Shown here: piece after piece, positions 28,632 through 31,689 of the stretch
How the letters are laid out: the number at the start of each line of letters is the position of its first letter
How positions within the stretch are numbered: position 1 is the stretch's first letter
DNA from: Comamonas sp. lk
GTDB lineage: Bacteria; Pseudomonadota; Gammaproteobacteria; Burkholderiales; Burkholderiaceae_C
Assembly: GCA_945860595.1 (NCBI GenBank)
Contig: CAMAQV010000002.1
Span: forward strand, 61,346 to 125,345
DNA length: 64,000 nucleotides
Reading direction: 5' to 3'
Made by a program: the position numbers and the translations under genes
Notes under the pieces: model-generated
What the model saw: the letters and a program-made list of their open reading frames with translations, nothing else
Told to the model about the DNA's origin: nothing
The model's database searches: none

Positions 28632-28691
28632 AGCGCGGGGTTCCGGGTTGCAGTGGGGATTCGCCCACCGGTGCGGCGGCTGAAAAAAGGT

Positions 28692-28785
28692 GACGAGCCT
28701 TGACCCCGGCACTGGCTCTGCAGTTAGGGCTGCTTGGTTCCCCACCTGACCCGGTTGGCCGCTTCACCATGCGGGAAGGCCCGTC
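28692..28785 (-). ncRNA. ffs: Signal recognition particle RNA (4.5S)
   Basis: The minus strand contains GGGTCAGGTGGGGAACCA followed by AGCAGCC, the conserved M-domain-binding hairpin of SRP RNA. The GGAA tetraloop is closed by UGG/CCA instead of the E. coli UCC/GGA, a compensated change. The 5' end GACGGGCCTT pairs completely with the 3' end AAGGCTCGTC, giving a molecule of about 94 nucleotides. A TACAAT -10 element (28798-28793) lies seven bases upstream, and a run of six Ts follows at 28688-28683. It is divergent from dnaX, the same pair of neighbours seen in many proteobacteria. Confidence 0.92.
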
Positions 28786-28837: not shown

Positions 28838-30700
28838 ATGTCCTACCTTGTGCTCGCCCGCAAATACCGTCCGCGCAATTTTGCGGAAATGGTGGGGCAG
28901 GGCCATGTGGTGCAGGCGCTGTCCAACGCGCTGGGGTCGGGGCGTTTGCACCACGCCTATTTGTTCACCGGAACGCGCGGCGTAGGCAAAACCACCGTGG
29001 CGCGGATACTGGCCAAATCGCTCAACTGTGTGGGTTCCGACGGGCAGGGCGGCATTACCGCCACGCCTTGCGGGGTGTGCCAGGCCTGTGTCGATATCGA
29101 TAGCGGGCGCTTTGTGGACTACACCGAACTCGACGCGGCATCCAACCGCAGCGTTGACGAAATACAGGCCCTGCTGGAGCAGGCGGTGTACAAACCGGTG
29201 CAGGGGCGCTTCAAGGTCTTCATGATCGACGAGGTGCACATGCTGACCGGGCACGCTTTCAACGCCATGCTCAAAACGCTGGAGGAGCCGCCGGAGTACC
29301 TCAAGTTTGTGCTGGCCACCACCGACCCGCAAAAAGTGCCGGTCACCGTGCTTTCGCGCTGTCTGCAGTTCAGCCTGCGACCCATGGCGCCCGAGACGGT
29401 GCGCGAACATCTGGAGCACGTTTTGGCGGCGGAGCAGATTGCCTTCGATGCAGGTGCCCTGCGGCTGTTGGCGCGTGCAGCGCGCGGCTCCATGCGTGAC
29501 GCCCTGAGCCTGACCGATCAGGCGATTGCTTTTGGCGCTGGCCGGCTGGATGAGGCCATGGTGCGCCAGATGCTGGGCAGCGTGGACCAGTCTTATGTGT
29601 TCCAGCTCATCGACGCTTTGGCGCAGGGCGATGGTGCGGCGGTTTGCGCGCTGTGCGAAGTGCTGCGCACCCACGGCTTGAGCGCTGCATCTGCGCTAGA
29701 AGACATGGCCGCAGTGTTGCAGCGTATGGCGGTGTGGCAGGTCGCTGCCGCTGGCGTAGATGAGGACAGCGACCCCGACGCCGCACGTATTGCGCAACTA
29801 GCCGCACTGCTACCACCTGATGAAACCCAGTTGCTCTACAGCCTGTGTCTGCACGGTCGCGCTGATCTCGGCCTGGCCCCCGACGAATATGCCGCCCTGA
29901 CCATGGTTTTGCTGCGCTTGCTGGCCTTCAAGCCGGCGGTTGTCGCTGTGCATGGTTGGCAGGCCACGCAGGAAAAAAAAAGTCTGAATAGTCCGCACGC
30001 ACCACCGGGAAAGCGTGTGCCCGTGCGCGACAGTGCGCGACTGCAACCTGAAGCGCCGGGTGCCGCTGACCCGGATTCCGGTGATGCGGTGTGGCAGGAA
30101 ATCGACTTGGAACGTGACAAACAAGGCCAGCCACTAGAAGCAGTCTGGGCCGGAGACATGGCCGCAGAGCACGTTTCTGCGGGTGACGTACAGGCGTTGG
30201 AGGGCGCGCTGCGGCTTCCAGCTGTGCCGACCCTGCCGACCCGGCTGGTAGGTATCCCGGTGCGCAGTGCCACGACGGCCGAGCCCGAACCCGTGGCCAC
30301 TGCGGGACTGCAACCGACGCCGGAGGGCGATTTCTGGCACGGCGTGGTGCAAGCCCTGGTCGACAGCGCAGCCGTGAATGCCATGGCGCGCGAATTGGCT
30401 TTGCAGTCGCAATTGCTGGCGCGCGATGAGGGGCTGTGGTTGTTGCGGGTGGAGCGCGAATCACTCAACCAGACCAGTAGCCGCGAGCGTTTGGCCCAAG
30501 CCCTGCAGGCTGCGGGTTATGCCGTCGAACTGGCGGTGGAAATCGGCCGCGTCAGTGACTGTCCGGCGCGCCGCAACAGCGCGGCCAGCCAGGGCCGCAT
30601 GGATGCCGCCCGACAGCTCATCGAGGCTGACCCTTTTGTGCAGCGCATGGTGCGCGAGTTTGGGGCGAAAATCGTCCCAGGCTCGATCCAGCCGCTGTAA
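28838..30700 (+). CDS. dnaX: DNA polymerase III subunits tau and gamma
   Basis: DnaX forms the clamp-loader motor and links the polymerase core to the helicase. Walker A is GTRGVGKTTVARILAKSLNC, the zinc module is CGVCQAC, the DEAD-like Walker B is VFMIDEVHML, and the SRC motif is in VLSRCLQFSL. The tau-specific C-terminal part runs from about 385 to 620. At codons 379-381 the message has GG followed by nine As. A -1 slip there ends after KSE at TAG, yielding a gamma-like product of about 385 residues. ybaB and recR follow, the classic order. Confidence 0.96.
   Translation: MSYLVLARKYRPRNFAEMVGQGHVVQALSNALGSGRLHHAYLFTGTRGVGKTTVARILAKSLNCVGSDGQGGITATPCGVCQACVDIDSGRFVDYTELDAASNRSVDEIQALLEQAVYKPVQGRFKVFMIDEVHMLTGHAFNAMLKTLEEPPEYLKFVLATTDPQKVPVTVLSRCLQFSLRPMAPETVREHLEHVLAAEQIAFDAGALRLLARAARGSMRDALSLTDQAIAFGAGRLDEAMVRQMLGSVDQSYVFQLIDALAQGDGAAVCALCEVLRTHGLSAASALEDMAAVLQRMAVWQVAAAGVDEDSDPDAARIAQLAALLPPDETQLLYSLCLHGRADLGLAPDEYAALTMVLLRLLAFKPAVVAVHGWQATQEKKSLNSPHAPPGKRVPVRDSARLQPEAPGAADPDSGDAVWQEIDLERDKQGQPLEAVWAGDMAAEHVSAGDVQALEGALRLPAVPTLPTRLVGIPVRSATTAEPEPVATAGLQPTPEGDFWHGVVQALVDSAAVNAMARELALQSQLLARDEGLWLLRVERESLNQTSSRERLAQALQAAGYAVELAVEIGRVSDCPARRNSAASQGRMDAARQLIEADPFVQRMVREFGAKIVPGSIQPL
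29973..30019 (+). promoter_or_regulatory. Candidate dnaX frameshift/slippage signal
   Basis: A run of nine As (29973-29981) in frame GAA-AAA-AAA-AGT is followed by a 7-base inverted repeat CGCACGC/GCGTGTG (29994-30000 and 30013-30019, one G-U pair). Both the -1 frame (TAG) and the +1 frame (TGA) stop within a few codons. This matches how E. coli (ribosomal) and Thermus (transcriptional) make the gamma form. Confidence 0.6.
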
Positions 30701-30746: not shown

Positions 30747-31079
30747 ATGTTCAACAAAGGACAACTTGCCGGCCTGATGAAGCAGGCGCAGGCCATGCAG
30801 GACAACATGAAGCGCGCGCAGGAAGAACTCGGCAGCATCGAGGTCAGCGGCGAGGCGGGCTCCGGCCTGGTCAAAGTCACCATGACCTGCAAGCACGAGG
30901 TCCGGCGCGTGCAGATCGACCCCAGTCTGCTGGTCGATGACAAAGACATGCTCGAAGACCTGGTAGCCGCCGCCTTTAACGCGGCGGCGCGTGCTGTGGA
31001 GGAGACCAGCAACGCCAAGATGGGCAAGGTCACCGCCGGTATGCCCAGCCTGCCCGGCGGCATGAAGCTGCCGTTCTAA
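30747..31079 (+). CDS. ybaB: YbaB/EbfC-family nucleoid-associated protein
   Basis: A 110-residue DNA-binding protein that forms dimers on the nucleoid. The family pattern [22 protein letters not shown] and [21 protein letters not shown] is clear. It lies between dnaX and recR as in most bacteria and is probably cotranscribed with them; recR begins one base after its stop. Confidence 0.95.
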
Positions 31080-31080
31080 G

Positions 31081-31689
31081 GTGGAGCCACACGCGGCTGG
31101 TAGCGACGGCGCGGCGCTGGAGGGTTTGATCGCCGCCTTGCGCCGCCTGCCGGGGGTGGGGCAGAAGTCGGCACAGCGTATGGCGTTTCACCTGCTACAA
31201 CACGACCGCGCTGCAGCGCAGCAACTGGGGCGCGCCTTGCTGCATGCGGCGGAGCATGTGCAGCATTGTCAGCGTTGCAATACATTTTCCCAATCCAGCC
31301 TGTGTACGGTGTGCGCCAACCCGCAGCGCGACGCCAGCCTTTTGTGCGTGGTGGAAACCCCGGCCGATCAGGCCGCACTGGAGCGCACCAAGGCGTACCA
31401 GGGCCTTTACTTTGTGCTCATGGGTAAGCTCAGCCCGCTGGACGGCATCGGCCCCAAAGACATCGGTATTGAGGCCTTGTTTGCACGTGCCTGCGACGGG
31501 GTGGTGCGTGAAGTCATTCTGGCTACCAATTTCACCGCTGAGGGAGAGGCCACCGCCCACGTCATCAGCGAAGGCTTGAAAGCCCGCGGCTTGCGCCCGA
31601 CCCGCCTGGCGCGCGGCGTGCCAGTGGGCAGTGAATTGGAATATGTGGATCTCGGTACCATCGCGCACGCGCTGGTCGATCGCCGTTAG
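31081..31689 (+). CDS. recR: Recombination protein RecR
   Basis: RecR acts with RecO (and RecF) to load RecA on SSB-coated DNA. The helix-hairpin-helix [19 protein letters not shown], the zinc finger [16 protein letters not shown] and the Toprim domain starting at [14 protein letters not shown] are all present. The GTG start directly follows the ybaB stop. Length of 202 residues is standard. Confidence 0.96.

Follow-up and report, generated by a model that had tools for sequence, protein, structure and literature searches.

In Escherichia coli, the production of the gamma form of DnaX employs the heptamer A_AAA_AAG, an upstream Shine-Dalgarno sequence and a stem-loop located about 5–6 nt downstream, and only a stop codon in the -1 frame is needed. 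The tau domains that are absent from gamma bind the helicase and the polymerase, as known from E. coli. Gamma is made by slippage in Thermus and by frameshifting in enterobacteria and some other bacteria, and its importance is a matter of long-standing dispute. Thermus-type slippage yields an mRNA pool of varied A number, with a gamma:tau ratio near 1:1. In the dnaX gene of Thermus thermophilus, RNA polymerase slips on a run of nine As (A9), and stop codons are present in both other frames (Larsen et al. 2000, as related in PMC1088944 and PMC5009743). Two-ORF dnaX genes with runs of seven to ten As form a GeneTack cluster, and when a 9-A cassette derived from a different gene was placed in E. 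coli, frameshift product amounted to 40% (PMC3711429). The heptamer A_AAA_AAA is reported to be far less shift-prone than A_AAA_AAG (PMC5009743). According to a 2012 review, most bacteria beyond the enterobacteria and Thermus keep no dnaX frameshift signature and may make no gamma (PMC3290774).

The window analysed here, a stretch of 64,000 nucleotides from Comamonas sp. lk, contains a dnaX gene with an A9 run (Table 1). The encoded DnaX protein matches the Pfam families PF13177, PF22608, PF12169 and PF12170 (ATPase, lid, domain III and tau C-terminal, respectively), all above cut-off, and scores 404.6 bits against TIGR02397 (cut-off 250). Domain III (PF12169) comprises residues 238–363 and tau domain V (PF12170) residues 506–616. 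Judged by sequence and position, the downstream genes follow the dnaX-ybaB-recR order of E. coli. A small SRP RNA gene of the bacterial type (Rfam RF00169, 60.5 bits) immediately precedes dnaX and is encoded on the opposite strand (28689–28785, minus strand). The slip site was matched by no family in the Rfam search.

Table 1. Features in and around dnaX of Comamonas sp. lk, in window positions.
Feature	Position	Strand	Basis
dnaX, full-length tau, 620 aa, 66.5 kDa	28838..30700	+	ORF, Pfam, computed mass
A9 slip run (putative), dnaX codons 379–382 (gAA AAA AAA Agt)	29973..29981	+	sequence; kept in relatives
TGA in +1 frame, reached after A8 or A11	29985..29987	+	+1 reading GTC TGA
TAG in -1 frame, reached after A10 or a -1 ribosomal shift	29989..29991	+	reading AAG TCT GAA TAG
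7-bp hairpin, stem 29994–30000 / 30013–30019	29994..30019	+	-11.5 kcal/mol; probably not functional
YbaB/EbfC-family gene, by sequence and position	30747..31079	+	ORF; E. coli gene order
recR, by sequence and position	31081..31689	+	ORF; E. coli gene order

The run is embedded in the dnaX frame as CAG GAA AAA AAA AGT CTG. An mRNA one base shorter would add a single valine before the TGA, with a predicted product of 382 residues and 41.1 kDa ending in EKKV. An mRNA one base longer, or a -1 ribosomal shift, would add KSE before the TAG, with a predicted product of 384 residues and 41.4 kDa ending in EKKKSE. A sequence-only reading of this gene had described the nine As, the KSE extension followed by TAG and the almost immediate TGA, all of which are exact, and its estimates of about 42 and 66 kDa for the two proteins agree with the computed 41.1–41.4 and 66.5 kDa. 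After a -1 shift the TAG would be read as the fourth codon, a near -1 stop of the E. coli type. The slip point is located 16 residues past the end of domain III (residue 363) and well ahead of tau domain V, and translation would therefore yield a clamp-loader subunit resembling gamma.

We propose, with a probability of roughly three in four, that the A9 run of dnaX serves as a programmed site of transcriptional slippage. RNA polymerase would slip at the run and give rise to a mixture of dnaX mRNAs with 8, 9, 10 or 11 As. Messengers with nine (or 9+3n) As would be translated into full-length tau, while with other numbers of As the ribosome would enter one of the two off-frames (+1 or -1) and meet a stop within a few codons. 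The released gamma-like subunit would consist of domains I–III and roughly 20 further residues, without the tau domains. That the run is a built-in slip site yielding a second, shorter DnaX is very probable; the occurrence, step and frequency of the slippage, as well as gamma itself and its role, we infer from the sequence. As in T. thermophilus, the pure A run, the paired off-frame stops and the lack of ribosomal stimulators favour slippage at the level of transcription. In both genes a single tau ORF has about nine As in its sense strand, with close stops in both non-zero frames and a short gamma as the predicted product. In Comamonas sp. lk, however, the run lies at ~61% of the gene rather than at seven-eighths as in Thermus, and the two lineages are unrelated. 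Furthermore, slippage is established in Thermus, whereas the Comamonas-type run, which is kept across a family clade, is known here from sequence. The two-ORF dnaX genes of the GeneTack cluster also contain a poly-A slip site, but require slippage for the synthesis of tau, which in Comamonas sp. lk is the unslipped product.

The run is not a chance occurrence. Only eight A9 or T9 runs are found in the whole 2.8-Mb genome, six of which lie outside genes as judged by our reading of the flanking ORFs, several of them beside terminator-like hairpins. This number, and the synonymous-codon purity with which the run is kept across the family, bear out the earlier remark that nine As are unusual in this GC-rich gene. 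An assembly error was likewise rejected as its source, as complete genomes repeat the run with the tau frame intact. Another coding A9 of the same genome (L123, C16:7814-7822, minus strand) reads GAA AAA AAA ATG and lies close to the 3′ end of a LON-domain-like ORF.

To place the run among its relatives, 326 dnaX loci from the genus, family, order and class were compared, chosen mostly by similarity to the Comamonas sp. lk DnaX and hence not a random sample, together with 80 named genomes that overlap with these. The closest named relatives are Comamonadaceae MAGs; Rhodoferax, Ramlibacter, Polaromonas and Curvibacter are more distant. A run is present in 55 of 55 dnaX genes of the genus (54 A9, one A10), in all 80 named, mostly Comamonadaceae loci (79 A9, one A10) and, as A8–A10, in 85 of the 137 family genes, which were sampled largely one per genus. 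In genus and family genes it nearly always shares one phase and a location near codons 370–392. In a tree based on the DnaX N-terminal domain, one clade of the family, with 107 sampled rows, has the run in 103 of them, and a sister group of ~45 sampled family rows, mostly of GC-rich species, lacks it; production of gamma from A9 would thus not be universal in the family. The distribution takes four state changes, compared to at least 38 in shuffles, and the trait is clade-like.

Codon statistics were obtained from 190 non-identical run-bearing dnaX genes, which are not independent, species kinship inflating the counts. Both lysine codons of the run are AAA in 100% of these genes (background 39%; AAG makes up 61% elsewhere in the same genes), and the glutamate codon is GAA in 100% (background 41%; GAG 59% elsewhere). 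The residue following the run is Thr or Ser, and all 43 serine codons at this place are AGY (background 39%). As serine is always encoded by AGY, the ninth A is also kept, though a ribosomal heptamer needs fewer. The off-frame stops follow the same trend. A +1 stop within three codons is present in 91% of the 190 genes (5.6% in the control, consisting of positions in the same linkers), a -1 stop within ten codons in 92% (24% in the control), and stops within ten codons in both off-frames in 89% (5.3%). Where the leucine codon CTG is replaced by the rare CTA (18% versus 2%), the +1 stop is still there as TAA or TAG. Judged by these figures, selection on the dnaX run is at the nucleotide level. 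The purity of the silent sites and the pairing of the stops support the short gamma form that had been predicted from the sequence.

A different explanation is that the run merely encodes a required Glu-Lys-Lys motif or is neutral, and that the off-frame stops clear the products of accidental slippage. The residues E-K-K-(T/S)-L are indeed conserved, and a stop codon next to a run prone to errors would usefully limit the damage. However, AAG, GAG and TCN codons would preserve the motif without the hazard, yet they are used in 0 of 190 genes; the remainder of the surrounding linker is variable, and sister genera without A9 contain another slip heptamer. We therefore consider this explanation highly improbable. 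One observation counts against the programmed transcriptional slip site as well. Silent sites flanking the run (29970–29990 and the equivalent positions in relatives) are biased, with GCT for the preceding alanine in 62% versus 11% and ACT for the following threonine in 80% versus 6%; simple slippage does not explain this bias.

Alternatively, -1 ribosomal frameshifting of the kind used by E. coli dnaX, here on A_AAA_AAA, could be the main source of gamma, and A9 would then be no more than a long slippery stretch. The gene is the same, and in both species gamma ends, or would end, shortly past a Lys-Lys slip site that follows domain III; the TAG after KSE is a near -1 stop, a ribosomal shift would give the same -1 product, and in sister genera A_AAA_AAG, as found in E. 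coli, occupies approximately this position and is followed by a -1 stop. Unlike E. coli dnaX, however, the Comamonas sp. lk gene has no A_AAA_AAG in frame, no Shine-Dalgarno sequence and no stimulatory stem-loop, and it contains an additional +1 stop. After codon 330, no in-frame A_AAA_AAG occurs in any of the 55 dnaX genes of the genus, and the 0-frame heptamer of Comamonas sp. lk is A_AAA_AAA. Upstream Shine-Dalgarno-like sequences are found in 4% of the 190 run genes compared to 7% of the control, and such a stimulator was rejected for the A9 genes. Ribosomal shifting, moreover, needs neither the ninth A nor the very close +1 stop, yet both are kept, and as the main route it is unlikely.

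The downstream stem-loop had been put forward as an argument on the mechanism, its distance from the run, larger than in E. coli, being taken to favour transcriptional slippage or a mixed mechanism. A 7-bp hairpin does begin 12 nt past A9, but the argument fails, since its stability is that of dinucleotide shuffles (z = 0.05 over 45 nt, z = -1.2 over 60 nt) and it is not conserved, the nearest relatives (L004–L008) showing different folds downstream of the run. Among the run-bearing family genes there is hardly any excess of downstream structure (mean z -0.48 versus -0.19 in the control), and the stem-loop was rejected as a stimulator. The earlier preference for transcriptional slippage is nevertheless backed by the comparative evidence. 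An upstream RNA hairpin, of a type able to aid polymerase slippage, shows a weak excess over 30 nt (z -0.54 versus -0.06) and none over 45 nt. A mixed mechanism, in which RNA polymerase and the ribosome both slip on A9, would be consistent with the stops retained in both off-frames, and A runs are known to make both machines slip (PMC5009743). No conserved feature is specific to ribosomal shifting, however, and we regard such a mixture as quite unlikely.

Four of the 107 members of the run clade lack the run, two of them belonging to the genera g31 and g101. Like E. coli dnaX, all three sampled species of each of these sister genera contain an in-frame A_AAA_AAG, at codons 378–393 and thus at approximately the A9 position. 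A -1 stop follows two or four codons after the heptamer, while a near +1 stop is not consistently present. An upstream Shine-Dalgarno-like sequence of the GGGAG/GAGGAG/GGAGG type precedes it in five of the six genes, and one heptamer gene (L138) has a strong stem-loop of -18.2 kcal/mol over 50 nt. In the dnaX genes of the other two run-less members (L143 and L150) no slip site is visible; one species of the genus of L150 still has A9 (L434). The simplest reading of the g31 and g101 genes is that ribosomal frameshifting took over from polymerase slippage while gamma was kept, the tree suggesting a change from A9 to the heptamer. We lean towards the view that gamma production by polymerase slippage on A9 is ancient and selected throughout this Comamonadaceae-type clade, and that in two genera it was replaced by E. 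coli-type ribosomal frameshifting. If true, this would represent a natural exchange of the slip machinery, in which the short protein and not the mechanism is under selection. The conservation of a slip site at silent positions throughout a large proteobacterial clade, together with its apparent replacement by a different slip mechanism in two genera, speaks for a requirement for gamma in these bacteria. The type of slip site is already known from Thermus dnaX; in a literature search of partial coverage, neither the family-wide presence of A9 in dnaX nor the apparent swap to the heptamer was found described. Since A9, A_AAA_AAG and the lack of both are all represented among species of the family, how gamma is used and which mechanism is chosen can be tested directly.

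It has been suggested that two lysine tRNAs accompany polymerase slippage (PMC5009743). A match to the tRNA-Lys-CUU anticodon arm, judged by an 11-base pattern of which only a few matches were confirmed with ARAGORN, is absent from 26 of the 85 genomes with a run, and the tRNA is present in one heptamer genus. The link is not upheld as a rule, and the lysine tRNA count was rejected as a mechanism switch, as genera with A9 and those with the heptamer cannot be told apart by it.

Runs of A8–A10 are also scattered among dnaX genes of other families in the order and class, some with a near -1 stop only, which is consistent with repeated origin. Five genes from other families of the order (L066, L069, L082, L260 and L296) read cAA or gAA AAA AAA ACT GA/AA, with an immediate -1 stop, and may slip in one direction; in L069, L082 and L296 the +1 stop is not near. 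In three further genomes (G159, G178 and G020), through either a sequencing error or a genuine break, dnaX was found as two overlapping pieces in different frames.
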